DNA of 30,930 nt from Fragilaria crotonensis (lineage: Eukaryota > Bacillariophyta > Fragilariophyceae > Fragilariales > Fragilariaceae), in NCBI GenBank assembly GCA_022925895.1, contig JAKSYS010000714.1, forward strand, positions 1 through 30,930, in the 5' to 3' direction. Each line of letters starts with the position of its first letter. The stretch's first letter is position 1. A program made the translations under genes and the position numbers. This document shows, one piece after another, positions 1 to 24,911 of the stretch. The notes below the pieces were generated by a model, which saw only the letters and a program-made list of their open reading frames with translations, was not told where the DNA came from and made no database searches.

Positions 1-2403
1 TTCTCAAGACAGTCGAGCAAAATAAGTGACCCTCGCTACACGTTACAACGGCACAGCGTCGTTTGACGAATGCTGTTTCAGTGCAGTTGTCACAAAAGCC
101 AAGACCCTCCTTAAACAAGATCGCGTGGAGCTTGTCCATGGCATCCCTTGGTACATCGCCACTTATCCCAGCTTGTAGATTGCTGGCATGTTTGAGCAGG
201 ACAAGGAGCACGTCCGTGCTCAACCTTCCGTGAGAGATACGAATGAGACACCCAATCACTGTCTTGCAAACTAGTTCAAGAGCGGCTGTATTCCAGGTGA
301 CCTTTTTATCCGCATCTTTTTCGAGCTGTTTCCATCCACCAACGGTAGCCGTTTCCCGCTTCAGGACGTACTTCTCTAGGACATTTGTTGGCTTGCCGTC
401 ATTCAAGTGCCATAAAATTAGCTCTGCCATGACAACGCCAAAAGAATACACATCAAAGGCTGGAATATAGTCACACTTGAATGTGGTTCGCCTTGTACCA
501 GGTATATTCTGGGCACATGTACCCATGGGTTCCAAGTGCGGGGCCTAGTGCTGAGCCAGTTTGTATTTTCGACTCCGACGAAACAGTTTCGTGCTCGTCC
601 ACAACAAACTTGGCCAGCCCACAATCAATGAGCTTTGGTTTAAAATCGTTCATCAGACAAATGTTTGCACTCTTGATATCGCGGTGAAGCACTTTGACGC
701 CGTTTACACCAGTGTGCAAGCAGTGCACTGCTTTCGCCACTTGATACATGATTGACAGTCGGTCAGCTGCAGGAAGGTCGGCTCGCTTGCTCTCGTCCTC
801 GAGAAAGTGGTCGAGGGAGCCGTTGGACGCATACTCATACACCAGAAATTGTTGTTCATGCTTGACATTTAAATTGTAGCCGTACAAGACAATGATATTG
901 TCATGCTGAAATCTTCTGAGTGTCTGGCGGCATTGTGCAACATTGTTAGAACTCGATGGAGATGGGGGCAGGAATAATTGTTCATTGTTCAACACGGGGC
1001 AACACTCAATGAAGGCACAACGTACCAAAAGTTCCCTCTGGAAGGACTCCAAAATGCCGTGTTTGGGGCCATCAGAACTTTGAGAAAGTTTGATCATTTT
1101 GAGTGCGAACTTTTTGGGTTCAGGGAGATCAGGATCTTCGACCAAAAAACATCGCCATAGGTACCCGATCCAAGTTTGCGGATTTCGATGCAACGCTTAA
1201 TATACTGATAAGAGAGTTCAACAGGTTCAGTCTTGCGGGTTGTCATCACCTTAGCAAGCGATTTCCGGTTCTCTTTACTTCCTCCAAAGTCTTAGTATGA
1301 TCACGGAAGGCCTTGATCGCAGCAAACTGTCTATGTTTATGAGCCACTTCAAGAGCTGTTAATTCGTCATTATCTTTGAGATTCGCATTCACCTTGCTGT
1401 TTTGGAGCAACTCGCGGACGACTTCCCCACGGTCATAATGACTCGCAATGTGAAGGGGTGTTGCACCATTCGTACATGGGAGATTCACATCCACAATGTT
1501 GTGCTGAGCAACTCTTGACGACTTCCTGATAGCCTTCTCGGCTTGCCTTGAAAGGGCTGTTTCACCATTCTTATTTTGGGCATTCACGTCCACATTGTCG
1601 TTCTGGAGCAACTCACGGACGACATGCAGATTGTTGTGTTGACTCGCCATGCTTAAGACTGTATCACCATCCTTGTTTTTGGCATTCACATTCACCTTGC
1701 TGTGCTGGAGCAACTCGCGGAAGACTTCCAAACCACCAAGTACACTCGCAGCGTGAAGGGCTGTGTCACAATCATCAGTACCAAGGATATTCACATCCGC
1801 CTTGCTGTTTTGGAGCAGCTCGCGGACGACATCCACATGACCCTTTTGACTCGCAATGTACAGGGCTGTTACACCACTAGTAGATTGGAGATTCACATCC
1901 ACATTGCCGTTCTTAAGCAACTCGCGGACGACTTCCAAATGACCATTTTGACTCGCCACGTACAGGGCTGTTGCACCACTCGTACATTGGAGATTCATTT
2001 CCACATTGTCGTGCTGAAGCAACGCGCGGACGACTTCCAAATGACCATGTTGACTCGCAATGTGAAGGGCTGTTGCACCACGAGTAGATTGGAGATTCAC
2101 ATCCACATTGTCGTGCTGAAGCAACTCGCGGACGACTTCCAAATGACCATTTTGACTCGCCATGTGAAGGGCAGTTTTTCCATCATCAGGACATTGGAGA
2201 TTCACATCCACATTGTCGATTTGAAGCAACGCACGGACGACTTCCAAATGACCATTTTGACTCGCAGTATAAAGGGCTGTTGCACCATAACTATCACCTT
2301 GGGCATTCACATTGGCTCCATCAAGCAATAGGGCACGAACTTCTTTGAGATTGCCATATAAGGCGTTGAAGATCAAAGCAACGTCGTTGTCACTCCACGG
2401 CAT
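1..2403 (-). pseudogene. Ankyrin-repeat/protein kinase gene, copy 1 (frameshifted; 3' end outside window)
   Basis: The gene starts at 2403 with MPWSDNDVALIF, the conserved start of this family. About 10 ankyrin units of roughly 34 residues follow (2400-1290), with the usual TALxxASQxGHxEVVRELL pattern. A TKL-like kinase follows (about 1190-250) with HRDIKSAN, an unusual DCG in place of DFG, and CPEY. The left edge of the window cuts it inside the RING-like region. Compared with copies 2 and 3, it has lost one base in a T run near 1271-1277 and one A in the run at 1144-1149, gained a G at about 479, and lost another base near 16. These separate an ankyrin frame (2403-1246) from a kinase frame (1193-471). 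Ankyrin unit 9 is scrambled by indels that cancel out. The kinase half matches copy 3 and the end of the ankyrin half matches copy 2. It is probably a pseudogene, though sequencing errors in homopolymers cannot be excluded. Confidence 0.85.
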
Positions 2404-2599: not shown

Positions 2600-4255
2600 C
2601 TGTGATACTGTACTAACGCATACTGTAGTACATCTGTGCTTATGTGGCTCATTAACTTCATACAGGCATATGGATCGTACAGTATTTGTAGACGTCCAGC
2701 TCTCAGTATAGTGTGTTTTGTGGGGCAAATTTTAATAGGCTGTATCACTGCTGTACTTTATCCTGAAAGGCTGGAAAAGATGGTAGATCAAATTCGCTCT
2801 GTTTCTCTAAGAGTTGTCGTATTCGTGAATTTTTCATTCTTTATTCCGACTCGTTGGACATTTTTGTCGTCGAGTTTTGTCCGAGTGTGATTTCAAGAGA
2901 TTGGATTTCGAGCACTTCAGAGATTCAAAAGCTAATCTCGTCGAATCCTACTGTACTACCGTAGCAATGATATTAGACCGTTCGTTAACCTGGCATGCCA
3001 CACTAAAGTCAGACGCATTCTCCACTGCGGCCCTGCATTTGATAGACACAGGTCTTCCGTTTTCACGGAGTGTTCACGCTTGTCTACATCGTTGGGTTTC
3101 ACTTGCCCATGGACAATCGATATCGACATTATGTGAAGGAAAATCAGCGGCGCATTACTCTCTTCGTCATATGACAGGCCCTTGGAACGTCAGGCTCTGA
3201 ATTGCTGCTCGCTAATGTCCGTGTCTGCAATCGACAGACGCTCATGTTGGAATCATTTTCCAGCTCTCGACGATATCAATTTCGCAACCACGTCGTCGTT
3301 TGATGCAACGATCACGACGTTCAACAACATTAGATGACACAAAAAGCGGACGCAGAAAAGCTGGGTTTGACAAGATTGGCCCGGTCAAGGAGCTACAGCT
3401 TTGGTGGCCATTCGTATCTCTGCGCAGATTTTGCGACTCAAGTTTTCCAGCATCATTAATTCTGTCGAGCACCAGAATTTCCCCTGACTACAAATCAATT
3501 ACAGAATTTCCCAAACATCCTATCACGAACTCCAAAGACCCTCTACTCTCTGCCAGTAGATACTAGAGACTTGAGACTATCGGGTTGAAATGCGAATGAC
3601 GCGACAATCAGAGGGATATGCATTCATGCATGCAGAAGTCTATCATATTATTCACGAGGAAGCCATCGCTGCTCTCTCAACTCTTGAGTAGCACTCGGAA
3701 CATATATAACACAGTCGCGGGAATCAGGTTGCTGTGTTTGGCGTTGCAACAAGTGCCGGGACAAAGCCTCATCCATCTGGTTCAAGGACGAAATGGGGTT
3801 AGCACGAGGGAAGTCTTTCAAACGCTATTTGGTGCCGTGGATGAATTTGGTTGGCTGTGCCGCCACTCAAAGCCAAGGGACAGCGGGCTGCCGGCACCGT
3901 GCACGCCTCAACTAAGAGCACAGAATGGGCTGAGGTCCACGAGCGAGGACTTCTTCGAGACCTTGTAAGGACCTTTGTGATGCAGGGATGAAGCATTCAC
4001 GAGACGAGTGACCCGTTGATTTGGTCTAGATGGCATTGAGACCACATCACTTAAATAGGCTAGTGGTTACAACTCGACATGACTTCCTACCTCGTGAGAC
4101 AAGATCTCCTAGCAAACGACACGTCCAAGTTTGAGTTGAGTGTATTTCCGTTCCAAAAGATGGTGGCCATGAACCAACAATGAGCGAAACGTATGCAAGG
4201 TTTGTTATGGAATATAGCAAAGAAGGTAGAAAAGGTCTTGGCAGTACATCCGGGA
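2600..4255. other. Intergenic stretch with no recognisable gene
   Basis: Both strands carry only short open frames (for example 2877-3200 and 3618-3968 on plus, 4047-4259 on minus) with no motif I recognise. No LTR, ankyrin or helicase signal is visible. It may be decayed transposon or intergenic DNA. Confidence 0.5.
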
Positions 4256-5020
4256 TCATGGATAATCAGATTGACACTGCCACGCCGGCAAACACCATGG
4301 CCAGTTGGTGATCACACGTTTGAATTAACACATTGCCGTTGTGTTTTGCCGGTAGATTAATGATACAATAATCATCAAACTCCTCCACAGTAGGTGCATT
4401 CGGCAATCATGCACCATACGTCAGGACTTGACATTGCGACTTGTCGTGGAACCTCCTGCAACGAGCGCCATCACCTCCAGAGTCATGGCCGCAACTGGGA
4501 TTTCACCACAATCCACGTCGACTCCCTCGACTTGGGGCGCGACGGCCGTATCTCAGGTGATGGTGATACTGTTGGGAGCCCATGACGCAGCGGTATACCC
4601 AGCTGTACCATCAAGTTGGCGAATGGTGCATCACCGGTAATGGCAGCGTCTGCCAAAGTAACTTTGATTCTCTCCTTCAACGTCAAACGAACGCCGCACT
4701 TATTCATGAGACCAATTGTCAACGCAACATGGGGGTCTGAATTGAGTTCATCCATGATGGCAAATGGTAACATACATCGCCATCACCGCAAGGGTCTGGC
4801 CATTATCCCGCTAATCGGGGTCTACTAGTGTGGTGTGTGCGTGTGTGATGATGCTGCGAGAGCAAAGCATCAAATGCGTCAAATGCGTCAAACAAGGATC
4901 ACTAGGACAAAACAAGCGATATCGTGGTGGTCGTACCGTCCCTCCAGGCAGTGGTGCGCCATTGGATGTGACAATTACGACGAATATCGAAGTTGAACGT
5001 TGTCCATACGATTCCACGAG
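4256..5020 (-). pseudogene. Decayed member of an unidentified gene family, copy A
   Basis: This region aligns in patches with 5715-6360 (copy B) and 20125-20850 (copy C). Shared minus-strand peptide fragments include FAIMDEL and LTIGLMNKCGV near the N-terminal side, VTLADAAITGDAPFANLM in the middle, and EFDDYCI close to the C-terminal side (about 4360-4390). No single frame is intact, because stops and frameshifts interrupt it. The upstream part (4830-5020) also resembles 20740-20850, which suggests that a promoter or first exon was copied too. I do not recognise the family. Calling it a gene rather than a non-coding repeat rests on the matching peptide fragments and on a signal-peptide-like start in copy C. 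Confidence 0.4.
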
Positions 5021-8109: not shown

Positions 8110-11100
8110 TCAAGCCCATATGGTCTCCTCGTCGTCGTCGTGTGACACGTCGTCAACCTTCTTCACCCAAATCGTCCTTCCGTTCTCAAGCAGGACAGGT
8201 TCCATCTTTGTCCTCCACTCCGATTCGTGCTCTTTGGCCATGTCTGCCATCGCCTTTAACGCCTTTCCTTCCAAGGTCTGCTGTTTATCATGGTTCTTTT
8301 CGTCCGCCAACTCTTTGATTAATTTCTTCATCTCTTTGGTATGCTCTTTTATTCGATACGTCTTACATACGGCCAGCAACACTTTCGAGGGATCCCAGGC
8401 AGCTGCTACATCGATGGCAATTTGAAGCAACGGTAAAACCGTTACCATCCATTGTTTGTCCACCGAAATCTCAAAGGGATCATGACCTGCATCGCCCGAG
8501 CGCTCACAATAGAAGGTCACCTCGTATTTTTGCTTCGCTGGATTTGTGAACCACGTTTTGAGAGTTTTCGAACGATCAGCGTCGATGCGAGTGATCACCA
8601 CGAGAGTTGGGCACACACTACGATGTTGCAAATGCGCATTGTTCCACGCCAGCCCTTTCAAGCAGTGATGCATTGCGGACGACAACTTATCAAAACGTTT
8701 TTGGTTGTCTTTCAGCGAAAGCGTGATTTGGTCTAATTTTTTGTCGGCTCTCTTCTGCCAGTGGAAGGACCACGTGCTAGCAGGTACGTGCTCACAAATA
8801 TCATCAATTGTGAAAGGTTGGCTCGGACACCCACTGACCAAGCACCGAAGTTGAAAAGTGGCAGGGGTGCTGGCAGGGGCTTCCCAAACCGCTTTTTCAA
8901 GACATTTGGCGCACAATGGGTGAGACTCTTTTTTACACTTTACAACAAAAAGCCGTTCATCAAAGTAACATGGGAGGCCTTGGCCAGCGCAGTCCGGGTC
9001 AGAGTTCGGTTTATCAGTGTTGTGCAGGATATTGTCCAGATCAGCTATGGCATCCTTCGGCTCAACACAGGTTATCCCGTTGTGTACATCTTTGGCATAT
9101 TTCAACAGGTCACGAAGCTTGCCCGTGCTCAATCTTCTTTCAGAGGGAAGGGTGATGCACCCAATCACGGTCTTGCAAACAAGTTCAAGAGCTTCTGCAT
9201 TCCAGTCGGCCCGGCCATCTGCATGGTTTTTGAGCTGTTTCCATCCATCAACGATAGGCGTTTCCTCATTCAAGACGTACGTCTGCAAGACATTCGTTGC
9301 CTTTCCATCATTCAAATGCCCTATAATTAGCTCAGCCATGACAACGCCAAAAGAATACACATCATAGGCAGGAATGTAGTCACAGTTGATGCCTTTTCCT
9401 TTCTTCGAGATATACTCTGGGCACCTGTACAAATGAGTTCCTATTGCGGTGCCTTGCGTTGAGCCACTTTGTAGGATCGACTCCGACGGAACAGCTTCGT
9501 GCCTGTCCAAAACAAACGTCGCCAGCCCACAATCAATGAGCTTCGGTGTAAAATCGTTCATCAGACAAATGTTTGCACTCTTTATATCGCGGTGATACAC
9601 TTTGACACCTGCTGCACCAGTGTGCAAGCAGTGCACTGCTTTCGCCACTTGGTACATGATCGACAGCCGGTTATCTGCAGGAAGGAGGGCTCTCTTGTCA
9701 TCATCCTTGAGAAAGCAGTCGAGGGAGCCGTTGGCTGCGTATTCATACACCAAAAACTGCTCTCCAGCTCTGCCTTTGAAGTTGTAGCCGTACAAGACAA
9801 TGATATTGGGATGACGAAATCTTTTGAGTGTCTGGCAGAATCGTGCATGAGTGTTAGAACTCGAAGGAGATGGGGGCAGGGTACATATACATTGTTCCAC
9901 ACGAGGCAATGGCTCAATGCAGAACACACAACGTACCGAAAGTTCCTTCTGGAAGGATATCAAAATTTCGTCGTTGGGGCCATCGGTTCTTTGAGAAAGA
10001 TTCATCATCTTCACAACGAACTTTTTGGGTTCAGGGAGATAACCATCTTCGACCAAAAAAACATTGCCATAGGCACCCGATCCAAGTTTGCGGATTTTGA
10101 TGCAATGCTTGATGTAGTGATAAGAGAGTTCAACAGGTTCAGCCTTGCAGGTTGTCATCACCTTTGCAAGCGATTCCCGGTTCTTATTTACTTCCTCCAA
10201 AGTCTTAGTATGATCACGGAAGGCTTTGATCGTAGCAAACTTTCTATGTTTGTAAGCCACATCAAAAGCTGTTAATCCTTCATTATCTTTGATATTCGCA
10301 TCCACCTTGCTGTTTTGGAGCAACTCGCGGAAGACTTCCACACGGCCATATTGACTCGCAATGTGAAGGGCCGTTGCACCGGTATTACACTTGAGATTAA
10401 CATCCACATTGTTGTGCTCGAGCAACTTCTTGACGACTTCCTGATTGCCTTCTCGGCTTGCCTGGAATAGGGCTGTTTCACCATTTTTATTTTGGGCATT
10501 CACGTCCACATTGTCGTTCCGGAGCAACTCACGGACGACATCCAGATTGCTGGAGTGACTCGCAATGATAAGGGCTGTATCACCATTCTCATCATAGGCA
10601 TTCACCTCCACATTTTCGTGCTGAAGCAACTCGCGGAAGAGTTCCACATGGCCATTTCGACTCGCAGTGTGCAGGGCTGTTCTACCATCTTTACGTTGGA
10701 GATTCACCTCCACCTTGCCGTGATGAAGCAACTCGCGGACGACTTCCAAACGACCCCTTTGACTCGCCATGTAAAGGGCAGTTGTACCATCATTAGTGCA
10801 TTGGAGATTCACATCCACATTGTCGTGCTGAAGCAACTCGCGGACGACTTCCAAATGACCATCTTGACTCGCAATGTAGAGGGCTGTTGTACCATCAGTA
10901 GATTGGATATTCACATCCACATTGTCGATTTGAAGCAACTTGCGGACGACTTCCACATGACCATTTTGGATCGCGGTGTAAAGGGCAGTTGCACCACTCG
11001 TACATTGGAGATTCACATCCACATTGTCGTGCTGAAGCAACTCGCGGACGACTTCCAAATGACCTTGTTGACTCGCCATGTAGAGGGCTGTTGCACCATC

Positions 11101-11316
11101 ATCAGTACATTGGAGATTCACATCCACATTGTCGTGCTGGAGCAGCTCGCGGACGACTTCCAAATGACCATTTTGACTCGCAATGTAAAGGGCTGTTGCA
11201 CCATAACTATCTTGGGCATTCACATTGGCTCCATCAAGCAATAGGGCACGAACCTTATTGAGATTGCCATCATAGGCGTTGAAGAACAAAGCAACGTCGT
11301 TGTCACTCAACGGCAT
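8110..11316 (-). CDS. Ankyrin-repeat / TKL-like protein kinase / RING-IBR-like protein, copy 2 (intact)
   Basis: This is an intact frame of 1068 residues. The start at 11316 (MPLSDNDVALFF) is chosen because copies 1 and 3 start at the same place; the frame stays open to a Met at 11430. Residues about 5-345 hold 10 ankyrin units and a partial eleventh. Residues about 405-700 are a kinase with glycine loop LGSGAYG (from G412), the VVK lysine (K436), HRDIKSAN (D577), DCG instead of DFG (D595), CPEY and DVYSFGVVMAEL. Around 775-850 is a Cys/His module containing HPLCAKC (C802) and CLVSGC, like RING/IBR zinc folds of ubiquitin ligases. Residues about 915-1055 form a domain shared with copies 3 and 4 (GHDPFEIS, KALKAMADMAKE, GRTIWVKK). 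The tail is acidic. The inferred role is a cytoplasmic signalling kinase whose ankyrin array binds a partner, perhaps linked to ubiquitin transfer. Substrate and pathway are unknown. Confidence 0.9.
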   Translation of the reverse strand: MPLSDNDVALFFNAYDGNLNKVRALLLDGANVNAQDSYGATALYIASQNGHLEVVRELLQHDNVDVNLQCTDDGATALYMASQQGHLEVVRELLQHDNVDVNLQCTSGATALYTAIQNGHVEVVRKLLQIDNVDVNIQSTDGTTALYIASQDGHLEVVRELLQHDNVDVNLQCTNDGTTALYMASQRGRLEVVRELLHHGKVEVNLQRKDGRTALHTASRNGHVELFRELLQHENVEVNAYDENGDTALIIASHSSNLDVVRELLRNDNVDVNAQNKNGETALFQASREGNQEVVKKLLEHNNVDVNLKCNTGATALHIASQYGRVEVFRELLQNSKVDANIKDNEGLTAFDVAYKHRKFATIKAFRDHTKTLEEVNKNRESLAKVMTTCKAEPVELSYHYIKHCIKIRKLGSGAYGNVFLVEDGYLPEPKKFVVKMMNLSQRTDGPNDEILISFQKELSVRCVFCIEPLPRVEQCICTLPPSPSSSNTHARFCQTLKRFRHPNIIVLYGYNFKGRAGEQFLVYEYAANGSLDCFLKDDDKRALLPADNRLSIMYQVAKAVHCLHTGAAGVKVYHRDIKSANICLMNDFTPKLIDCGLATFVLDRHEAVPSESILQSGSTQGTAIGTHLYRCPEYISKKGKGINCDYIPAYDVYSFGVVMAELIIGHLNDGKATNVLQTYVLNEETPIVDGWKQLKNHADGRADWNAEALELVCKTVIGCITLPSERRLSTGKLRDLLKYAKDVHNGITCVEPKDAIADLDNILHNTDKPNSDPDCAGQGLPCYFDERLFVVKCKKESHPLCAKCLEKAVWEAPASTPATFQLRCLVSGCPSQPFTIDDICEHVPASTWSFHWQKRADKKLDQITLSLKDNQKRFDKLSSAMHHCLKGLAWNNAHLQHRSVCPTLVVITRIDADRSKTLKTWFTNPAKQKYEVTFYCERSGDAGHDPFEISVDKQWMVTVLPLLQIAIDVAAAWDPSKVLLAVCKTYRIKEHTKEMKKLIKELADEKNHDKQQTLEGKALKAMADMAKEHESEWRTKMEPVLLENGRTIWVKKVDDVSHDDDEETIWA

Positions 11317-11517: not shown

Positions 11518-11915
11518 TGTTGAAACTACTAGTGTAGTAGAGTACGACTGTACAGTATAGTAACAGATCCCGTAATCTAGCTTGCTAGAGTGGTTCGATT
11601 TCAGTAAACCAGATTTTAAATTAATATGAGTTCATCATTCGATGTGCTCAGTCCCATAATTCAATCGCTGATTCTCCCTTCGCCATTCGTGATCGTGCAC
11701 ACTCCTGTGTTCTCCATCGCTGTTAATGTTGCAATGATTCGTCTTCATTGCATTGACGTTTCCGATCCCAGCAGCATCAATGGTCTCATCGTATCCGTTG
11801 TTCCCGATGGATCGCTTTATAGTCGCCACTTCCTCATGTCGCGGATCCTTCATTTTGTGCGCGACCTTCGTCCATCCACCGTCTGTCCACAGTTCGGCTT
11901 CAACGATATTCAACA
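11518..11915 (-). repeat. 3' LTR of the copia element
   Basis: 398 bp, starting TGTTGAA and ending TTCAACA on the plus strand. Nucleotides 11635-11915 are also the last 281 bp of the gag-pol frame, so most of its U3 is protein coding. The pol stop lies just upstream of the AT-rich motif at 11613-11626. Confidence 0.96.
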
Positions 11916-14900
11916 CACTCCTGTAATCCTGGTTAGGATCCTCATCAGGATTAATATTCATAATTTGATCGCGGAAGGTCTTGAACTGTGCACCTTGCAA
12001 GGGCTTAGTAAAATAATCCGCCACCATCTGTTTCGTCGGACAATATTCAATCCTGACCTCTCCGTTCGCCACGCGGTCAGTGATGAAAAAATATCGAATG
12101 TTGATGTGGCGCGTTCGCTTGCTGCTCGATGCTCGCCCATTCTTCTCCAGCAGAATGGCGCTTTGGTTGTCCTGGTATACAACGGATTCACTGATGTTGT
12201 ACCCTTGCGCATCCAAGAAGTATCGAGTCCAAATGACTTGAGCGAGGATATCACTCACGCCAACAAGCTCCGCTTCTGTTGAACTCTTCGTGCCGAGCTT
12301 CTGGCGGCAAGACGTCGCGTACACCGCACCCTTCCCAAGAGACAAAACACCGCCGGTGTGGCTTCGCATGTCTGGATGCACCGCATATGATGCATCGGCC
12401 CACCATTTAACAACGTTGCTTCCGTCGGCTTCCAGTGTCAGTGGCATGTTTGCGGTCGCCCGCAGGTATTTCATCACGCGGGCCAGTTTCTTATAGTCGT
12501 CGGAGTCAGGTCCTTTCACGCGAGTACAGAGGAAAGCGACAGTTGGCTGCACGTCGGGTCTCGCACGTTTGCATAAGAACAATAGTTTGGCCGTGTTGTG
12601 ATGAAAGAAGTCGGCCGTTTCTGAGTCTAGCTTTTCACAAGCATCGTCAACCTCGAATAGGTAGTTCGACGCTGGTGTTGCACACTCTCCATTCATGTCA
12701 TCTGGCAACTCGTCAAGCATTCCCTGCACATAGTCGATCATTGAGAATCGAACTTTACCATCGGTCGAGAAGTCGATCGTCATTCCGAGATATTCGTGAA
12801 CGCTTCCGCGGGTCTTAGTCAGAGGCGCCTCCTTCCCGAACTCTGCCTCGATCATGTCAATTATGTTTGTCACCACTTCGGGGTCGGTGTGGGAGATTTT
12901 TAGGTCATCGACGTGCCACAAGATTGTGCATTGCGTTCCATTAATCACTTGGTTGACAACGCAAGAGTCGTATGGATTCGCAATGAACCCCCAATCCTTC
13001 AGTTGTGTTGACAGCCTTCTCCAGAAGAGCAGAGCCGCCCTGAGTGTTCCGTATAGAGCCTTCTTCAGCTTCACGTACAGAACTGGCTTACCGTTCTCGT
13101 ACACGATATATTTCTCGTATAGGTCAGGGTTGACGCACACGAGTAGTTCTGCCATCTTCCCGTCAAGTCTCATGTACACAAGCTCGTCCATATCCGCCTG
13201 CATAAATGCGCCGGGGATGTCCACAGTCGCCACGTCACGACGCTCGTTTGCATCCATGACACACGAGAGCATGACCGCCTCAATTGCCACAGTGGGTGAG
13301 CTGGCATCTTCTTTAGTTGTATGTAGCCTCTGTTTCCTGCCGTCTGCGCAGCCGCGTCCCTTAATCCTGCCATTGCGCTTCTTCTTCAAGAACATCAGAT
13401 AGTGTAGCGCCGCTCGCTTCTCTTCCCTGGTTAGCTCGGTGGCATCCATCGGCTCCAGCACGTCACGATCATGGAGCTGCTGTAGCTCGCTTAACACCGC
13501 ATCAACTCCGGCGTCACCAAATTCCTTGATGCCCTTCTTCATATTGAGTTGGGTCATCACAGTGTGTTCCAGCGTCGTGTGCATATGTCCATAGTCCCTG
13601 GGTTTGCGTGGGCGTAGGTTGTAGGCTGCGGTCCGTTCGCCGTATTGTTGGTCCATTTCTGCCTCGACGTCCTCGTTGTCTGGAACCTCTTCAATCATCG
13701 TTGCATCGATTGATTCGTTCTCCACGGCAGCGTTTTGGTCGATAATGGCATCGTCGTCATCGTCGTCATCGTCGTCATCCGGTTCAGGTTCGACGGCGTT
13801 TGGTTCGAGTTCCGCGAAATTGGGAAGGTCGTCGTCGTTGTTGGGGGCGTCGATTGCGGCAACGTCGTCGTCGGCCATTGCAGGTTGGTCGGAGTTAATT
13901 GCAGGTTGATTCACGTTTGGTGGGTAGTAGACCTCCACTCCTGCGATGTGGCCAGGGTCATCTGGCGGATCATCGTCGTCCTCATCAAACGGGTAATCAA
14001 TCTCCTCATCGTCGTCGTTAGGAGTGTAGTCGGCGTCGTTGTCATCGTCGTCGTCATCGTCCGGGATGATGTCGCCATGCCGGTCAGTGAAGGTGAGTGC
14101 GACGTTTGCAGCGGCGCGACGAGCGAGAGTGTGAACGCGATCGACAACGTCTTGTGGCATCGGCAACTCCGTCCAGTTGTTACGATTGAGCACCCGACCG
14201 GTGCTGAGGCTGTACAGGTAGTAGCCTCCTTGAGCGTTGCCCGTAGGGCGGAGTGCAATAGCACCGGTGGTACGAGTGGCCATGGTGTTGTCGTGTTCTT
14301 CGTGTGCCTGGACATAGGCACCGAATTCAAGTTTGCAGTGTTTGTTAAAATCGATGTGGGAGCCCGTCACGATGGCACGTGGGCTCAGAGTATCTGATAT
14401 ACCATCCCGTGCCGGAAATGTGTTCAACCAGAACACGCAATAGTAGATCAATTCTGCGACCATTCTTCCAGGGATTTTGCGAAACGGCATCGTGTTATAT
14501 ACGCAGCGGGCTCGTTCTTTGATAGTGCGGATGTAACGCTCGGCTTCTGGGACGTGTTCGCCTCTGGCGACAGTGTTGAGGGTGACACCGAACTCGGCAA
14601 GATCGCCAGTAATTCCTTCGAACTGTCCGTCCATGAGCATCGTTCCGGTTGTGAATCCTCGTTTCTTGTACACATTGCGAACGTCCTCGGCCGCCTTGAC
14701 CAATGTCTCGTGTTTCTGGTCAGACATGAGCACCGCCGTTCCAAACTTGATGTTGCGCGAGATGGTCACAAAGAAGGGTAGTTTGTTAACGAACATGATG
14801 TCTGCACCGATAATGACATCACGATACTGGGACATTAATTCTGATGGCACCGGCACGGCGGCGACCTCCACATGTTCGGTGACACGACGAACTGTCTTTC

Positions 14901-16758
14901 CTTTCAATGATCCCACGTCGGCTCCAAAGATCTTTTCGGCAATCAGGATATCTTCACGGGTCACAGGGCAGTTTGGCAGGAGATTCATGTCAACAATCTT
15001 GACGAATTCCTTCGTTGTTGGACGTCCAATCATCTTTTGGATATTCCTGGCCATTACGGCACGGGCATACGCCCGATTCGTGAAGCCAGCCTTATTGTTC
15101 GCAACAGTATTGATCATAACGGTTGCGACGTCACTGACCGGGTCACTGGCATCCAGGAAGTATAGCCCCCGTCCGGACTCGTTGAATACTCGGCTGGTTC
15201 CGTTGGGCTTGATTACGGTGAACTTGTTCCCACCTTCGCTGTCGTAGGTCACGTGGTACCCGTGTTCCTTAACCCTTGACAACGACAAAATGTTGGCGAT
15301 CCCGTTTGGGTGGTACCACACCGTACCGTACCCAGCAAGGTCACCAATAAGATTCGTACTCGCAATTCCGGCGTTGCAGTGTATCTCCATGGATTCCGTA
15401 TCTTCCCGGATGTTGCTGAGAAGGTCACCGTTACAAAAAACGTCCACCGTTGACTGGTTGTCCAGGAGAATCCAGGTCTTGGGGAGCTTTCCATCCTCTC
15501 CAATCTGACATGCGATTCCGTCCGATGCGTTCAAGAACTGGAAATGCATGGTCGGTTCATTGAATTCCCCGCTGGCAATTCCTGCGTTGAGCAACATTGC
15601 TCCGGTCTTAGCCCCGTTCCCTCCGGAGGTGCCTTCCTTCACCTCGTTTCTCTCTGGACATTCCGATGCGTAGTGGCCCTTCTTCTCGCATCTGTGACAT
15701 GTGATGTGAGCCTTCCCGGCTCGTGGAGTCTTGGACTTGTCATCGATGTTGGCGAAAGCCACTCCGTCGGCAGTCGGCGTACGCCATCCGGTTCGCTCTT
15801 GTTTCCAATTTGTGAGCAGGTTATACGCCTCTGCGACGGTGCCTGGGTAGTGGTTGCGGCCTTGGAGGAAGTCGTTCTCGAGGTCGTCGATGAGTCTCCC
15901 GTAACGGCTTCGGTCGCATCCCAGTAAGAAAGCCATGGCCGTGGATCGAGCCGTTGTCTTGTTCGTCACTTCGCGCAGCTGTTCCTCTGTCATGTCTGCA
16001 CGTGGGATCGTCCCTTCGGCTATGACCACGTTGTCTACTCCTGGGTGCGCGGCGATTGATCCACCGCTTTCGGTCACGACAGCGATCACGTTCTGGAAGT
16101 GCTCGAGATAGACTTGAGTGGTTGCGTACTTTCCTTGTGCGCAGTTGTAGTAGCGTTTCAAGGCTTCGTGGAGCGCGTGGGGCAGGTACTTTTGACTCTG
16201 GAACTGGAAGGCAACTCCCTTGACCAGTTTGAGGAGTCCAAGGCCGTCACCAGTGGATGACACTCCTGCAAACAATTCGTGGGCTTCAAGTCTCTGACGC
16301 ATGATCTCGGTGCACTGTCCCCAGACAAGAGAGTAGAGCGTCTTCATGTTTTCGGCGAGGTACGAGAGCTGTTTGACGTGCTCGTCGACGGTTTTCTCCC
16401 AGATGCGTGTTTCAGTTCTGCTGGCATCTTCAGGTGGGTCAGTTGGCATGGCAAACATTGGCAATGTGAGAGTTTCAACAGCCAACCTGGCATCTCCACC
16501 GTAGGTGTAGGTCCTTCCAACAAACTCGGCAATCTCCTTTGTCGTCTTGGTGTACTGATCGGACTGGCGAACGTCCGAGCAGTCGTACACGTGTCCCTTG
16601 AGGTCGGCGCATTTACCTTCAAACTTGGGTGTCCTTGGCGCGAACCCCTTGGCTTGCTGTCCTGAATTCCCGGTCTTCTTCCCAGCGGTTCCGGCCTCCT
16701 TCTGCGAAGTCCCCGCTCCTCCACCATCGGTATCTTTCGACGACGATTCCTCTGGCAT
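11635..16758 (-). CDS. Copia Gag-Pol polyprotein (Gag, protease, integrase, reverse transcriptase, RNase H)
   Basis: One 1707-residue frame encodes the polyprotein that packages, copies and integrates the element. Gag occupies about 1-350 and ends in a CX2CX4HX4C zinc knuckle (CHRCEKKGHYASEC, 354-367). The protease motif is LLDNQSTVDVF with D433. The integrase core has candidate residues D653 (GADIMF), D710 (LMDGQFEG) and E738 or E740 (HVPEAERYIR). A strongly acidic Asp-rich linker covers about 895-1010. Reverse transcriptase shows D1180 (VDIPGAF) and HVDD with D1284/D1285. RNase H shows D1455 (ADASYAVHPD), E1497 (SSTEAELVG) and D1530 (YQDNQSAIL). Gag and Pol share one frame, with no frameshift or stop between them. 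The start at 16758 lies 37 nt after the 5' LTR. The last 93 or so residues are encoded inside the 3' LTR. All key motifs are present, so the element is potentially active. Confidence 0.96.
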   Translation of the reverse strand: MPEESSSKDTDGGGAGTSQKEAGTAGKKTGNSGQQAKGFAPRTPKFEGKCADLKGHVYDCSDVRQSDQYTKTTKEIAEFVGRTYTYGGDARLAVETLTLPMFAMPTDPPEDASRTETRIWEKTVDEHVKQLSYLAENMKTLYSLVWGQCTEIMRQRLEAHELFAGVSSTGDGLGLLKLVKGVAFQFQSQKYLPHALHEALKRYYNCAQGKYATTQVYLEHFQNVIAVVTESGGSIAAHPGVDNVVIAEGTIPRADMTEEQLREVTNKTTARSTAMAFLLGCDRSRYGRLIDDLENDFLQGRNHYPGTVAEAYNLLTNWKQERTGWRTPTADGVAFANIDDKSKTPRAGKAHITCHRCEKKGHYASECPERNEVKEGTSGGNGAKTGAMLLNAGIASGEFNEPTMHFQFLNASDGIACQIGEDGKLPKTWILLDNQSTVDVFCNGDLLSNIREDTESMEIHCNAGIASTNLIGDLAGYGTVWYHPNGIANILSLSRVKEHGYHVTYDSEGGNKFTVIKPNGTSRVFNESGRGLYFLDASDPVSDVATVMINTVANNKAGFTNRAYARAVMARNIQKMIGRPTTKEFVKIVDMNLLPNCPVTREDILIAEKIFGADVGSLKGKTVRRVTEHVEVAAVPVPSELMSQYRDVIIGADIMFVNKLPFFVTISRNIKFGTAVLMSDQKHETLVKAAEDVRNVYKKRGFTTGTMLMDGQFEGITGDLAEFGVTLNTVARGEHVPEAERYIRTIKERARCVYNTMPFRKIPGRMVAELIYYCVFWLNTFPARDGISDTLSPRAIVTGSHIDFNKHCKLEFGAYVQAHEEHDNTMATRTTGAIALRPTGNAQGGYYLYSLSTGRVLNRNNWTELPMPQDVVDRVHTLARRAAANVALTFTDRHGDIIPDDDDDDDNDADYTPNDDDEEIDYPFDEDDDDPPDDPGHIAGVEVYYPPNVNQPAINSDQPAMADDDVAAIDAPNNDDDLPNFAELEPNAVEPEPDDDDDDDDDDAIIDQNAAVENESIDATMIEEVPDNEDVEAEMDQQYGERTAAYNLRPRKPRDYGHMHTTLEHTVMTQLNMKKGIKEFGDAGVDAVLSELQQLHDRDVLEPMDATELTREEKRAALHYLMFLKKKRNGRIKGRGCADGRKQRLHTTKEDASSPTVAIEAVMLSCVMDANERRDVATVDIPGAFMQADMDELVYMRLDGKMAELLVCVNPDLYEKYIVYENGKPVLYVKLKKALYGTLRAALLFWRRLSTQLKDWGFIANPYDSCVVNQVINGTQCTILWHVDDLKISHTDPEVVTNIIDMIEAEFGKEAPLTKTRGSVHEYLGMTIDFSTDGKVRFSMIDYVQGMLDELPDDMNGECATPASNYLFEVDDACEKLDSETADFFHHNTAKLLFLCKRARPDVQPTVAFLCTRVKGPDSDDYKKLARVMKYLRATANMPLTLEADGSNVVKWWADASYAVHPDMRSHTGGVLSLGKGAVYATSCRQKLGTKSSTEAELVGVSDILAQVIWTRYFLDAQGYNISESVVYQDNQSAILLEKNGRASSSKRTRHINIRYFFITDRVANGEVRIEYCPTKQMVADYFTKPLQGAQFKTFRDQIMNINPDEDPNQDYRSVLNIVEAELWTDGGWTKVAHKMKDPRHEEVATIKRSIGNNGYDETIDAAGIGNVNAMKTNHCNINSDGEHRSVHDHEWRRENQRLNYGTEHIE

Positions 16759-16782
16759 GATGTTCGTAGGTATCGGCTTGCG

Positions 16783-16796
16783 TATTAATTTAAAAT
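16783..16796 (-). promoter_or_regulatory. Putative self-complementary primer-binding site of the copia element
   Basis: In the sense RNA the last LTR base and first 13 leader bases read ATTTTAAATTAATA. This is the exact reverse complement of a site inside the LTR (16891-16904, repeated at 11613-11626). It sits where a tRNA primer-binding site normally lies, and no TGG-type tRNA site is seen. By analogy with the self-primed Tf1 element, the 5' end of the RNA could anneal here and prime reverse transcription. This is an inference. Confidence 0.4.
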
Positions 16797-17193
16797 GTTG
16801 AAACTACTAGTGTAGTAGAGTACGACTGTACAGTATAGTAACAGATCCCGTAATCTAGCTTGCTAGAGTGGTTCGATTTCAGTAAACCAGATTTTAAATT
16901 AATATGAGTTCATCATTCGATGTGCTCAGTCCCATAATTCAATCGCTGATTCTCCCTTCGCCATTCGTGATCGTGCACACTCCTGTGTTCTCCATCGCTG
17001 TTAATGTTGCAATGATTCGTCTTCATTGCATTGACGTTTCCGATCCCAGCAGCATCAATGGTCTCATCGTATCCGTTGTTCCCGATGGATCGCTTTATAG
17101 TCGCCACTTCCTCATGTCGCGGATCCTTCATTTTGTGCGCGACCTTCGTCCATCCACCGTCTGTCCACAGTTCGGCTTCAACGATATTCAACA
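16796..17193 (-). repeat. 5' LTR of the copia element
   Basis: 398 bp, apparently identical to 11518-11915, with the same TGTTGAA...TTCAACA ends. It carries the promoter by position. It also contains a headless copy of the Pol C-terminus (open from 17194 to 16913), which should not be needed for Pol expression. Confidence 0.96.
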
Positions 17194-19354: not shown

Positions 19355-20119
19355 TTAACACCAATGACCTCTATCCTCTAATCGTTTTTTCACCCACATC
19401 GTCCGTCCGTTCTCACCGACAACTGGTTCCATCTCATCGCGCCACTTCTTCGAATTCTCCTCCTCGTTGGCCATGTCTGCCATCGCCTTTAACGCATTTT
19501 CTTCGAAGGTCTGCTGCTCACCATGTTTTTCTTTGACACCCAACGCATCGATTAAAGCCTTCATCTCTTTGGTTTTCTTAGGAAATAATGGAAACTCCTT
19601 GAGTACGGCCAACGCCACTTTGAGGGTCCATTCGGCTCCGATGTTGACGACAATTCGAAGCCAAGGTGCAACCGTTACCATCCACTTTCTGTCCACCGAA
19701 ATCTCAAAGGGCAGACCACCTGGTATTTTTGCTCCACAGCATTTGTGAACCACGTGTTGAGATCTTTCGAACGATCCGCTGCGATGCGAGTATAATCACG
19801 ACTGTTGGGCACAGCTTCAATTGTTCCGCATTCGCATTGTTCAACGCCCACCCTGGCAAGTGACGGTCAATTACAGACAACTTTTCACCTCATCATTGAT
19901 GTCGTCGACAACTTGTTGGACGACGTCAACTTTCGATGCGACTGTTTCGATGAGAGGTTGCAGAAAGAAGTATTGGATTATCGAATGGTCTATGCGTCCA
20001 ACAATCTCTCCCTCCTGGAAAGGTAGACCCGAGCACCCGCCGATCCGGCACGGAAGGTGGCGGTCGCCATGTACGGCGCCAGGTTTCACCATCGCGTCCT
20101 CAGAAGGCATTTGGAGCAA
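19355..20119 (-). pseudogene. Truncated ankyrin-kinase family C-terminus, copy 4
   Basis: Two minus-strand segments match the end of the family. At 20119-19960, GAVHGDRHLPCRIGGCSGLP matches the second half of the RING/IBR-like module of copy 3. At 19753-19355, PFEISVDRKWMVTVAP, NALKAMADMANEEE and NGRTMWVKK match the C-terminal domain of copy 2. The DNA between them (19740-19860) is also clearly related to 8540-8660 of copy 2, with an internal deletion of tens of bases near 19720-19740. Ankyrin repeats and kinase are absent. Its upstream end is fused to copy C of the unidentified family. It is a dead fragment, closest to copy 2. Confidence 0.8.
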
Positions 20120-20124
20120 AGTGC

Positions 20125-20850
20125 GTGGCAGTCGCTACATGTTCCACCGGTAGCGAGCGCCACCTCCGCCAGAGAAATTGGGCATGACGGCCGTATCTGG
20201 GATCATTGTGATACTCCCGATTGTTCCATCACATTGGCGAATGCTGAACTCTTTGATTAGATTCGGATCCGCATTCGCGAGCTGCAATCGTTCCGCCAGT
20301 AACGGCAGCGTCGTCGACCAAAAAGTAACTGACGGAACCGGCATCTCCCTCAACCACAATGGTCCCGGCTGTTTTGTCATATTGATCAGTGGATATATGG
20401 ATAACCAAGATTTGCCGCCGTCCATGTTTCCCTAAATGTCAACTGCGACGCCCGAATTGCTCATAAGACCAATCGTCAAGGCAGCAAAGGGGGCCAAAAA
20501 GTGGGTTCATCCCTGATGGCAATGAAAGCATCGCCAACAGCGAGAGGGGCGGCCACGAGCCGAGACAATAGGAACCGAGACATCATTTTCCCGCTGACCG
20601 AGACATGGTGTGTGCTTGTGTTGTATAGTATGACGAGTATCAAGAACGTATGCTTCGAGAAGGCATCGATGGTGAAGTACAGACGTGCCCATCTCGATAT
20701 AACCAACGTGACAATCAATAATAAAAAGAATGCATCGCAAGGATCAGAAGTACAAAACTTGCGACATCATGATGGTGGTGGTACAGTGTCTCCGGGAATC
20801 GGTGCGCCGGTTGTCGCATCGATGACGACTGGAGGACAGTCTCAGTTCTA
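20125..20850 (-). pseudogene. Decayed member of an unidentified gene family, copy C
   Basis: Related to 4256-5020 and 5715-6360. It has the best preserved start: about 20608 on the minus strand begins MMSRFLLSRLVAAPLAVGDA, which resembles a signal peptide, followed by FIAIRDE. After a frameshift come LTIGLMSNSGVAVDI, then DDAAVTGGT in another frame, and PNFSGGGGARYR near 20150-20175. The downstream half seen in copies A and B (EFDDYCI) is missing and is replaced at about 20120 by the ankyrin-kinase fragment. The region upstream of the start (20740-20850) resembles that of copy A. Product unknown, possibly secreted. Confidence 0.4.
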
Positions 20851-21534: not shown

Positions 21535-21620
21535 TATTGTACATAGTACATAGTACTGGTGCTGGTATACTTGTACTCTGGACTCTGGAGTACAGGAGTG
21601 GCTGGTACTAGAAGTACTAA
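21535..21620. repeat. GTAC-rich patch at the 3' end of ankyrin-kinase copy 3
   Basis: Repeated GTAC, TAGTAC and GGAGTAC words occur here. The patch reaches the stop codon of copy 3 at 21617, so it forms the start of that gene's 3' flank. Confidence 0.55.
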
Positions 21621-24600
21621 AGTAGATTGCAGACCACGAGACCCCGAGACTGCGAGGATTGCTCTTGACTCTGCTCGAGACCCTGCTCTTGGCCCTGCTC
21701 TTGGCCCTGCTCTTGACTCTGCTCTTGACTCTGCACTTGACTCTGCTCCTGACTCTGCTCCTGACTCTGCTCCTGACTCTGCTCCTGACTCTGCTCCTGA
21801 CTCTGCTCCTGACTCTGCTCCTGACTCGTGACATCCACATCTATAGGGATACTACTTTGTTCGCGTGCTTGCGTCACCCAAATCCTCGTTCCGTTCGAAC
21901 TGACTTCCACCATCCACTTCGTCATGTTCTGCTCATTCGCCCCCCGCTTCCACTTCACCAAATTCTCCGGCTCTTTTGCCATTTCAGCCATCACTGTTAA
22001 CGCTTCTCCCGATAAGGTCAACGTTTCAGCATGGTTTCCATTGTTCCACAACGCCCTGGCTAAAGCCCTCATTCCTGCACTGGGACCAGGTATCTGTGAG
22101 GTGGCCGTCGATAGTTTGGTATGGTCAAAAGGTGATCCTATCCTGAGCACGGGGCGGATCTCATCAAGAAAATCTGAAGCCTCTACCAACCATACAGGGC
22201 GCACCGAAACCTCAAAGAAATCGTTGTGACCTTGCTCCCCCGTGCGATCACAGCAGAAAAACACCTTGTATTTTTGCCAAAGGAAATCTCCCGGACATTC
22301 CATCGCGATGGGAGTCACCTTCACTTTAGTTGGACAAGGATTCGATTGCCCGGCAAATGGTTGCACAAAGAAGTAGTGATATACCCCAGCTTCTATGTAT
22401 CGACAAAGATCTCTGTCCTGGAAAGGTAGGCTCGTGCACCCGTCGATCAGGCACGGTAGTCGGCAGTCCCCATTTTTGGCGTCGGGTTTCACCATCGCAC
22501 CCTGAAGACAGTCGGAGCAAAATAAGTGACCCTCGCTACACGTTACAACGGCACGGCGTCGTTTGTCGAATGCTGTTTCAGTGCAGTTGTCACACTCGCC
22601 AAGACCCTCCTTATGCAAGATCGCGTGGAGCGTGTCCATGGCAACCTTCGGTACATCGCCACTTATCCCAGCCTGTAGATTGCTGGCATGTTTCAACAGG
22701 TTGAGGAGCGCGTCCGTGCTCAACCTTCCGTGAGAGATACGAATGAGACACCCAATCACAGTCTTGCAAAGAAGTTCAAGAGCGTCTGCATTCCAGCCGT
22801 CCTGGATATCTGCATCTTTTTCGAGCTGTTTCCATCCACCAACGGTAGCCGTTTCCCGCTTCAGGACGTACTTCTCTAGGACATTTGTTGGCTTGCCATC
22901 ATTCAAGTGCCATAAAATTAGCTCTGCCATGACAACGCCAAAAGAATACACATCAAAGGCTGAAATATAGTCACACTTAATGTGGTTCGCCTTGTACCAG
23001 GTATATTCTGGGCACATGTACCCTTCGGTTCCAAGTGCGCGGCCTAGTGCTGAGCCAGTTTGTATGATCGACTCCGACGGACCAGCTTCGTGCTCATCCA
23101 CAACAAACTTGGCCAGCCCACAATCAATGAGCTTTGGTGTAAAATCGTTCATCAGACAAATGTTCGCACTCTTGATATCGCGGTGAAGCACTTTGACGCC
23201 GTTTACACCAGTGTGCAAGCAGTGCACTGCTTTCGCCACTTGGTACATGATTGACAGTCGGCCAGCTGCAGGAAGGTCGGCTCGCATGCTCTCGTCCTCG
23301 AGAAAGTGGTCGAGGGAGCCGTTGGACGCATACTCATACACCAGAAATTGTTGTTCATGCTTGACATTTAAATTGTAGCCGTACAAGACAATGATATTGT
23401 CATGCTGAAATCTTCTGAGTGTCTGGCGGCATTGTGCAACATTGTTAGACCTCGATGGAGATGGGGGCAGGAATAATTGTTCATTGTTCAACACGCGGAA
23501 CACTCAATGAAGACACAACGTACCAAAAGTTCCCTCTGGAAGGACTCCAAAATGCCGTGTTTGGGGCCATCAGAACTTGGAGAAAGTTTGATCATTTTCA
23601 GCGCGAATAGTTTGGGTTCAGGGAGATCAGGATCTTTGACCAAAAAAACATTGCCATAGGTACCCGATCCAAGTTTGCGGATTTCGATGCAACGCTTGAT
23701 ATACTGATAAGAGAGTTCAACAGGTTCAGTCTTGCGGGTTGTCATCACCTTAGCAAGCGATTTCCGGCTCTCTTTTACTTCCTCCAAAGCCTTGCTTTGA
23801 TCTAGGAAGACCCTCATAACAGCAACCTTTTCATCACGCCTAGCCACATCAAAAGCTGTTAATCCGTCATTATCTTTGAGATTCGTATCCACCTTGCTGT
23901 TTTGGAGCAATGCACGGACGACTCCCACACGGCCATATTGACTCGCAATGTGAAGGGCCGTTGCACTGGTATTACACTTGAGATTCACGTCCACATTGTT
24001 GTGCTCGAGCAACTTCTTGACGATTTTCTGATCTCCTTCTTGACTTGCCTTGAATAGGGCTGTTTCACCATTCTTATTTTGGGCATTCACGTCAACCTTT
24101 TCGTTCTGGAGCAATATGCCGACGATGTCCAGATCCCTGTAGTAACTCGCTATGATTAGGGGCGGTATCACCCTCCTTATTTTGAGCATTTACGTTCACC
24201 TTGTCGCGCCGGAGCAACTCGCGAACGACGTCCGAACCAGCATATCTACACGCGGTGTGAAGGGCTGTTGTACAATCATAAGTACATTGGATATTCACCT
24301 CCACCTTGTCATGATTAAGCAACTCGCGGACTATTCCGACATAGTCATCTCCATTCGCAAAAACAACGGCTTTTGTATCAACATCAATACCTTCGAGATT
24401 CACAGCCAGATGGCCGTACTCGAACAATCGGACGACATCTGAATTGCCCCGTGCACTCGCAACATAAAGGGCTGTTACACCATTATCAGTCAATTGGGAG
24501 ATTCACATCCACATCGTCGATTTGAAGCAACTCGCGGACGACTTCCACATGACCATTTTGACTCGCAATAATCAGGGCTGTTGCACCATCATCAGTACAT

Positions 24601-24911
24601 TGGAGATTCACATCCACATTGTCGTGCTGAAGCAACTCGCGGACGACTTCCACATGACCATTTTGACTCGCAAAGTAAAGGGCTGTTGCACCACCAGTAG
24701 ATTGGAGATTCACATCCACATTGTCGCGTTGAAGCAACTCGCAGACGACGTCCACATGACCATTTAGACTTGCCAATATGAGGGCTGCTACACCACCAAT
24801 ATCATGTTGGGCATTCACATTGGCTCCATCAAGCAATAGGGCACGAACCTCATTGAGATTGCCATCATAGGCGTTGATGATCAAAGCAACGTCGTTGTCA
24901 CTCAACGGCAT
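21617..24911 (-). pseudogene. Ankyrin-repeat / TKL-like kinase / RING-IBR-like gene, copy 3 (frameshifted)
   Basis: It starts at 24911 with MPLSDNDVALII. Ankyrin units run to about 23820, with the middle ones more divergent than in copies 1 and 2. The kinase spans about 23690-22820 (LGSGTYG, HRDIKSAN, DCG, CPEY, DVYSFGVV). The zinc module shows CDNC, TCSEGHLFCSDC and CLIDGC at about 22620-22430. The C-terminal domain contains GHNDFFEVSV and ALTVMAEMAKEPE. Relative to copies 1 and 2 there is one extra base near 24491-24500, one extra near 24155-24165 and one missing near 23494-23500. This splits it into four frames: 24911-24486, 24493-24092, 24189-23488 and 23503-21617. The last frame alone could still encode a 628-residue kinase-RING protein lacking the glycine loop. 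It ends in an EQSQ repeat tail not found in copy 2. Confidence 0.87.
21660..21830 (-). repeat. 12-bp minisatellite coding for EQSQ repeats
   Basis: About 14 copies of a 12-bp unit (CTCCTGACTCTG and variants) encode SQEQ/GQEQ repeats at the C-terminus of copy 3. Because the unit is a multiple of three, copy-number change keeps the frame. Confidence 0.93.

Follow-up and report, generated by a model that had tools for sequence, protein, structure and literature searches.

How can an ankyrin array, a kinase and a zinc module resembling that of ubiquitin ligases come to stand in one chain, and what might such a chain do in a single-celled alga? The question is raised by an open frame, here called copy 2, on contig JAKSYS010000714.1 of the diatom Fragilaria crotonensis, whose 30,930 nucleotides make up the window that was analysed. 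A preliminary description took this frame for an intact gene of ankyrin repeats, a TKL-like kinase, a RING/IBR-like module and a conserved C-terminal domain, with three further copies in the same order, and proposed an immune or recognition role. How viruses, bacteria and parasites are detected within the cells of such algae is poorly understood. The features of the four copies are collected in Table 1; the cluster also harbours a helicase of Helitron type and one young Copia element.

Table 1. Positions of the four family copies and of the parts of copy 2 in the window.
Feature	Position	Strand	Remark
Copy 2, open frame	8110..11316	(-)	1068 codons; 1033 aa without the predicted intron
Copy 2, ankyrin array (residues 1-370)	10207..11316	(-)	Pfam Ank_2; 10 units by strict pattern
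Copy 2, kinase N-lobe, exon 1 part	9937..10191	(-)	lysine motif FVVKM
Copy 2, glycine loop GSGAYGNV	10060-10083	(-)	in the exon 1 part of the kinase N-lobe
Copy 2, predicted intron	9832..9936	(-)	105 nt, GT-AG, phase-0, in frame, stop-free, inside the kinase N-lobe
Copy 2, kinase C-lobe	9112..9831	(-)	HRDIKSAN at 9571-9594; IDCG replaces DFG
Copy 2, RING-like C3HC4 zinc module	8788..8973	(-)	first ligand pair C-x2-D, not C-x2-C
Copy 2, variable linker, RING to C-terminal domain	8614..8787	(-)	from the 26-copy alignment
Copy 2, conserved unnamed C-terminal domain	8158..8613	(-)	CPxLV ... QKYxVxFxC ... GHxPFEI ... W ... NGxxxWVK
Copy 1	2..2403	(-)	ankyrin array, frame-changed kinase, intron 924-1025, start of RING; contig end cuts the rest
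Copy 3	21617..24911	(-)	ankyrin pieces, intron 23423-23523, kinase, eight-ligand RING, C-terminal domain
Copy 4	19364..20127	(-)	decayed remnant: RING region and C-terminal domain only

The ankyrin repeats and the kinase of copy 2 are readily recognised by Pfam (Ank_2, E 4.3e-77; Pkinase, E 1.7e-27 for the whole frame). Is the frame intact, then? The 1068 codons read through a predicted intron, and removal of this stretch raises the Pkinase match from 96.9 bits (profile 47-198, unspliced frame) to 115.1 bits (profile 3-198, spliced kinase segment of 336 aa). A pattern search across the family, in which GT and AG ends were required a priori and which was anchored on a conserved exon motif at either side, gave 15 different forms of 89-105 nt at this site, only nine of them a multiple of three in length. 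From these intron forms and the better Pkinase match, the intact 1068-aa protein was rejected, and the predicted spliced product of 1033 aa is preferred. The second ligand of the zinc module is missing as well, so that the word intact had to be given up; with a missing zinc ligand and an intron inside its frame, copy 2 is a weak model molecule.

What about the other copies on the contig? The predicted intron of copy 3 is 101 nt long, and therefore the frame changes inside its kinase; there is a frame change in its ankyrin region too. Ankyrin and kinase sequences were sought in copy 4 and gave no match at E 1e-6, so that the whole module order is absent there. Thus, the earlier statement that copies 1, 3 and 4 share the order of copy 2 stands for copy 3 and, as far as the start of the RING, for copy 1, and falls for copy 4.

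Is the architecture nevertheless real, and not a chance fusion? The family counts, alignments and selection tests given here all refer to one diatom genome of 62 Mb, in which the C-terminal region has 77 matching stretches, of which one copy may yield several, on 28 contigs, among 88 candidates. All four modules occur in order in 15 of 20 fetched loci, not always in a single frame; four of the others lie in pieces under overlapping loci, and one has no ankyrin match. Many family copies are frame-broken. Thirteen gene models could be drawn, with ankyrin repeats and N-lobe followed by C-lobe, RING and C-terminal domain, and seven of them are a single open frame. The existence of a clustered multi-domain family of ankyrin repeats, putatively TKL-type kinase, RING-like module and C-terminal domain is thus strongly supported, as had been proposed for the architecture from the window. 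The preliminary description would have been undermined by homologues that always carry the kinase and lack the zinc module and C-terminal domain; the 20 loci display the contrary pattern. None of the titles and abstract openings in the literature listed describes such an ankyrin-kinase-RING-C-terminal architecture in diatoms.

The kinase keeps the motifs of active kinases. HRD is intact in 26 of 27 C-lobes and D-C-G was found in 24 of the 27, while the lysine motif and the glycine loop were found in 24 and 25 of 31 N-lobes, respectively. By pattern, only 14 of 27 kinases have the conserved PE that follows the activation segment; four carry a different residue and nine fall off the pattern. Among the best 60 of 399 PDB matches of the copy 3 kinase fragment, plant receptor-type kinases come at the top, SYMRK first, with IRAK and RIPK further down, where the MAP kinase FUS3 appears as well. 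Median pairwise dN/dS is 0.43 over 97 kinase pairs. The kinase is probably active and putatively of TKL type.

What kind of zinc module follows the kinase? By a loose pattern, all eight zinc ligands are kept in 35 of 37 distinct family segments, and copy 3 has all eight; the textbook RING spacing fits only 7 of the 37, and a C-x3-H spacing is found in 24 of 36. A family profile built from 27 of the 37 segments was searched against PDB to E 10, and 33 of 38 matches were RING-protein sequences from 12 different proteins, as against none of two matches for the reversed profile. The best match, TRIM69 at E 0.001, is the sole one significant alone, the next being at 0.06. Matches of Pfam models are weak: SINA-type and XB3-type RING models match 16 and 6 of 27 segments, the best RING-model E across family members is 7e-4, three RING models score 16.6 of 29.3, 15.6 of 27.9 and 14.2 of 27.3 bits in copy 3, all below cut-off, locus L028 reaches 13.2 of 29.3 bits, again below cut-off, and copy 2 has no match to Pfam RING models. 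Two AlphaFold models for the region around C802, on four-row alignments taken from the window only, have mean pLDDT values of 36.9 and 36.4, and neither is a confident model. Ligand conservation and profile matches together support a RING-like module in the family. An IBR unit was also considered. IBR models matched 2 of 26 copies at best E 0.1, and, in a set of 27, one each (IBR, 0.047; IBR_1, 0.064); neither Pfam nor the 26-copy alignment gave a second RING-type or IBR module in copy 2, nor did that alignment contain a further Cys-rich module. The RBR reading was rejected; the module is one single C3HC4 RING-like unit. Of the domain set first proposed, the order and the RING-like unit are therefore retained, and the IBR part is dropped.

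Can this module transfer ubiquitin? A proline after ligand 7 and a linchpin Arg or Lys after C8 are typical of active RING ligases. The proline is present in 3 of 36 segments, and the linchpin position is Arg or Lys in none and Ser in 27 of 36. It might be possible that the module, B-box-like or RING-like in fold, has a structural role and no ligase activity, which would leave the proteins as mere ankyrin receptor kinases, a view which we hold at somewhat less than even and which is compatible with the explanation preferred below. Besides the mostly missing residues, the lack of a Pfam RING match in copy 2, the sub-cut-off scores in copy 3 and weak matches of ANCHR-like B-box models (8 of 27, best E 3e-4) speak for it, against which stand the eight-ligand C3HC4 order, the predominance of RING proteins among the PDB matches and the SINA and XB3 matches. 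Ubiquitin transfer by the RING-like module is possible.

The C-terminal domain was said to be conserved and could not be named, and so it remains: it is conserved across the 26-copy alignment, common to many genome copies, and matches no named Pfam domain. A PDB search to E 10 gave a single match, at E 1.6, which is not significant. Searches relying on short conserved patterns confirmed no such domain in viral or prokaryote contigs. A segment taken to be that of a fungal (Mortierella-type) protein aligns with the domain in register (probability 38.5, P 3e-4), and this match is a lead only.

If the array binds other molecules, is its binding face diversified? Six positions of a unit, taken to be target-binding after designed ankyrin proteins, were compared with 23 framework positions. 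Omega in the first fit over repeat units was 2.22 at the former and 0.73 at the latter, where it is to be noted that the binding set was settled after a variability table and a first test with a hand-chosen set were known, and that sequence exchange between repeat units breaks the single-tree model underlying omega. A replicate in other units gave 1.77 and 0.78, and the units of the 13 gene models 1.69 and 0.72, these 92 units overlapping with the other two sets. None of 25 random six-position framework sets reached 2.22, and four whole-array comparisons with copy 2, using the hand-chosen set, went in the same direction. Two of the six binding positions, 0 and 24, stay under an omega of 0.5, while position 8 reaches the level of the highest although it is grouped with the framework. 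An early run with the designed-ankyrin set counted some pattern-fixed positions as framework, which the three fits above exclude, and its confidence limits treat unit-sharing pairs as independent; in the three fits, likelihood differences are slightly generous because kappa, with omega set to 1, was left at the value from the free fit. These results suggest diversifying selection on the ankyrin binding face, with gene conversion as a caveat. Clustered copies with omega above 1 on the binding face are the pattern of a diversifying receptor, subject to that caveat and to the choice of positions. With omega exceeding 1 at the binding positions of the repeats, the recognition role becomes stronger than first thought, and it may serve immunity.

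Could the same pattern come from a mostly neutral expansion, in which unequal crossing over and mobile elements close by multiplied a repeat-rich gene, many of its copies decay, and omega above 1 arises from exchange of units? The decayed copies within the window, the Helitron-type and Copia elements of the cluster and the dN/dS of the copy 2 C-terminal domain, about 1 in comparison with two close relatives (1.08 and 1.09) and lower with two others (0.81 and 0.74), would agree with it. However, kinase and RING are constrained in most pairs, the copy 2 C-lobe has dN/dS of 0.34-0.39 against three close relatives, and the high omega persists in units which the first fit did not include, as well as in those of the 13 best gene models. 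The position set, moreover, came untuned from designed-ankyrin work, with two low positions inside it and one high position left out. Such an expansion seems to us unlikely.

We lean, if only slightly, to a diversifying recognition repertoire as the best reading, and it is somewhat probable that copy 2 belongs to a clustered, expanded family for intracellular recognition and signalling which works as follows. The ankyrin array would bind a protein ligand, and its binding-face residues would diversify with the framework held; the targets would therefore be expected to differ from copy to copy or to change. Binding would be relayed to the TKL-type kinase with its intact catalytic residues, and the adjoining RING may recruit a ubiquitin-conjugating enzyme, or at least form a zinc-stabilised assembly surface. 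Either the receptor or the target that it has bound would then be phosphorylated and possibly ubiquitinated, in defence or in discrimination of self from non-self. A clustered family with a variable, selected-looking binding face and two candidate signalling outputs per chain is a concrete candidate which can be tested.

How do known systems compare with it? RIPK4, ANKK1, TNNI3K and plant ankyrin kinases, like the diatom family, combine ankyrin repeats with a kinase, in their case of TKL or RLK/Pelle type; they are not known to carry a RING or a C-terminal domain of this kind. XB3 combines ankyrin repeats and RING; the SINA/SIAH and XB3/XBAT31 ligases are not known to have a kinase. The diatom module resembles these ligases by its weak RING-model matches and its C-x3-H spacing, and differs from them in that the textbook spacing, the C7 proline and the linchpin arginine are mostly absent. 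More tentatively, the family may be a diatom counterpart of NLR repertoires made of other parts, with diversified ankyrin arrays, kinase and RING clustered like plant resistance genes and recognising pathogens or incompatible partners inside the cell; neither copy 2 nor copy 3 has a Pfam match to an NB-ARC or NACHT ATPase, the hallmark of NLR/STAND proteins.

Closest in composition is KEEP ON GOING (KEG) of Arabidopsis, in which RING, kinase, ankyrin and HERC2-like repeats follow in that order (PMC4022593). Are the diatom proteins, then, KEG-like regulatory ligases, which turn over endogenous signalling or trafficking proteins in stress, with the copies as ordinary lineage-specific duplicates? 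The shared module set, with the RING-like module counted as a RING, would favour this, as would dN/dS below 0.5 in 61% of the 97 kinase pairs and 69% of 48 RING-segment pairs. KEG, however, is a single-gene group in a table of PMC6118397, whereas there are many clustered copies here with binding-face omega above 1, the order is ankyrin, kinase, RING and C-terminal domain, and Pfam gives no HERC2-like repeat in copy 2 or copy 3. We regard such a ligase as rather improbable. The recognition family that we prefer would also suggest that kinase, ankyrin and RING came together more than once, in different orders and lineages. Among stramenopiles, Phytophthora infestans likewise has ankyrin on kinases, three being tabulated in the AGC and TKL groups, in a paper whose main text does not contain the word RING (PMC3019232). 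Brown algal LRR-ROCO candidate immune receptors, also a family of repeat receptors in stramenopiles, show positive selection at positions of the ligand face, and have LRR and a ROC-COR GTPase in place of ankyrin, kinase and RING (PMC11378527).

How far does the combination of an ankyrin array, a kinase, a RING-like module and a C-terminal domain extend beyond the window, whose contig (C685) is one of 881 in a genome of 62.1 Mb? Silicon transporters have 19 family matches in this genome, 18 of which pass the Pfam cut-off, and it is taken to be a diatom's on that ground. The whole protein of copy 2, the member with the open frame at 8110-11316, has at least 101 matches in the genome, a lower bound since 43 of 817 candidates were scored, and its C-terminal region has 77 matching stretches from 88 candidates on 28 contigs (counted by hand from the table; a single copy may yield several stretches). 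The modules follow each other in this order at 15 of 20 loci, some with broken frames. Four others (L044, L047, L050 and L051) have ankyrin repeats and kinase, with the remaining modules under the overlapping loci L019, L032, L033 and L038, and L058 has no ankyrin match among the 20 checked. An open-frame rule gave 13 gene models, seven of them single-frame and some truncated at the ends of the retrieved loci. The multi-domain chain proposed in the preliminary description is a true family, real and interesting.

The open frame of copy 2 is confirmed. Pfam matches its ankyrin repeats and kinase and, with an E limit of 1, nothing past residue 720; the kinase keeps the lysine, HRD, Asn and DCG. 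Family relatives shift frame at a single site within the kinase N-lobe, where a pattern search over 58 loci and the window, requiring GT and AG ends flanked by a pair of conserved exon motifs, yielded 15 different introns of 89-105 nt. Nine are multiples of three, and five of these nine are stop-free. Copy 2 appears unbroken because its own predicted intron is of this in-frame, stop-free kind. The Pkinase score is 96.9 bits for the whole frame (profile 47-198) and 115.1 bits for the 336-aa spliced segment free of the predicted intron (profile 3-198). Read-through of the five forms, in copy 2 and at other loci, would add about 30-35 kinase residues, and regulated retention may be possible.

Features of the window discussed in the text
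Feature	Position	Strand	Basis or character
Copy 2 open frame	8110-11316	-	
RING-C-terminal linker of copy 2	8614-8787		
Predicted copy 2 intron	9832-9936	-	GT-AG pattern; in frame, stop-free, one of five such forms
Copia retroelement, looks complete	11518-17193		LTRs; one long frame, 11635-16758, with RVT_2 match
Copy 3 tail past the conserved domain	21641-21844		QEQS/QEQG repeat run; not in copy 2
Helitron-type element	25681-28767		Helitron_like_N (E 8.9e-60) and PIF1 helicase (E 2.9e-52), separate frames
Unnamed ORF	29381-30055		Near-identical 33-residue repeat

What is the module after the kinase? Eight ligands in C3HC4 order are found with a loose pattern in 35 of 37 distinct segments. Two kinds of segment depart from this: the copy 2 type, whose first pair is C-x2-D as in a close relative on another contig (C294), and the second RING of L046; at this locus (3716-4423) two RING-like segments stand in tandem in two open frames, the second one ligand short. 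Ligands 3 and 4 are separated by three residues in 24 of 36 segments, four in nine and five in three, and only 7 of 37 have the textbook RING spacing. Pfam RING models match copy 3 weakly, under the cut-offs, and Sina_RING matches 16 of 27 family members weakly (best E 7e-4). A profile built from 27 of the 37 segments, every one with eight ligands, had 38 PDB matches to E 10: 33 to RING proteins (12 different proteins; TRIM69 on top at E 0.001, the second at E 0.06) while the other five comprise non-RING zinc or DNA-binding proteins along with an unrelated one. The reversed alignment, as a control, had two matches, neither of them RING. Active RING ligases usually carry Pro after ligand 7 and Arg after ligand 8. 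Here, Leu follows ligand 7 in 31 of 36 segments and Pro in three, while Ser follows ligand 8 in 27 and Arg or Lys in none. Therefore, from ligand conservation and the profile against its reversed control, a RING-like identity is well supported by sequence at the family level, and from the post-ligand residues ligase activity is not well supported. The RING-like part of the earlier proposal stands, but its case for ubiquitin transfer is weakened.

The ankyrin units, of which 259 distinct ones were analyzed, vary most at positions 1, 3, 8, 11, 12 and 33-34. A first test with hand-picked positions, comparing four arrays with copy 2, gave 1.2-2.0 for binding positions versus 0.47-0.74 elsewhere. 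The set was then replaced by the six positions that are randomised when ankyrin proteins are designed, which we take to be binding; it should be kept in mind that this set was fixed after the variability table and the first test. Nearest-neighbour unit pairs (n = 174) gave 1.45 at the six positions versus 0.49 elsewhere, a ratio attained by 12 of 1000 random position sets. In a codon model of 120 units, omega (dN/dS), for which gene conversion among units is a caveat throughout, was 2.22 at the six positions (lnL -1680.7 versus -1690.9 at omega 1) and 0.73 at 23 framework positions, pattern-fixed positions excluded; all 25 random framework sets stayed below 2.22 (top value 1.44). Taken singly, positions 1, 3, 11 and 12 exceed 1 and 0 and 24 are below 0.5; of three positions tried outside the set, 7 and 33 are slightly above 1, and the value at 8 is very high. 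The remaining 139 units gave 1.77 versus 0.78 for binding versus framework, and 92 units from the 13 gene models 1.69 versus 0.72. The recognition role now has a stronger case than the preliminary description gave it.

Outside the ankyrins, codon-model omegas for 26 copies are 0.71 in the RING (0.80 minus ligand columns), 0.60 in the C-terminal domain and 0.69 at the kinase end, and constraint on these modules is therefore moderate. Pairwise dN/dS medians are 0.43 for the kinase C-lobe (97 pairs), 0.35 for the RING (48) and 0.67 for the C-terminal domain (54); in this last domain copy 2 gives 1.09, 1.08, 0.81 and 0.74 against four relatives. The copy 2 linker reaches about 4.0 in comparisons with two close relatives, but silent changes are very few there and the limits are wide (0.85-34 and 1.08-33). 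The C-terminal domain, of about 150 residues, has invariant Cys-Pro, Phe-x-Cys, Gly-His, Phe and Trp in 26 copies, and no relatives of it were found in Pfam, PDB, viral and prokaryote collections within the extent searched.

Two mobile elements accompany the family in the window. The Copia element, whose insertion site is about 200 bp upstream of the start codon of copy 2, has 398-bp LTRs (11518-11915 and 16796-17193) that are 100% identical, TG...CA ends and a 5-bp target duplication, ATTAG, and is apparently young. The Helitron-type element adjoins copy 3 and could relate to the spread of the family. The repeat of the unnamed ORF (MAAITTQHQE.MRQTRLERLQRSQEGDPVAATQ) is present in four full copies and one partial.

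How might such a protein act? In the most economical reading, the ankyrin array would bind first, and the kinase and RING would then give the output. The copy 2 protein is likely intracellular, since no transmembrane segment stands out in it (19-residue hydropathy peak 1.63). Defence against viruses, bacteria or parasites and partner recognition are both possible roles; the ankyrin selection pattern does not separate them. The ankyrin-kinase-RING combination has a precedent, since the plant protein KEG (KEEP ON GOING) is described as consisting of RING, kinase, ankyrin and HERC2-like repeats (PMC4022593). The diatom family differs from KEG in how its modules are ordered, in how many copies there are, in its C-terminal domain and in its diversification. 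As a diversifying repeat receptor, its nearest stramenopile analogue found is the brown algal LRR-ROCO genes (PMC11378527).
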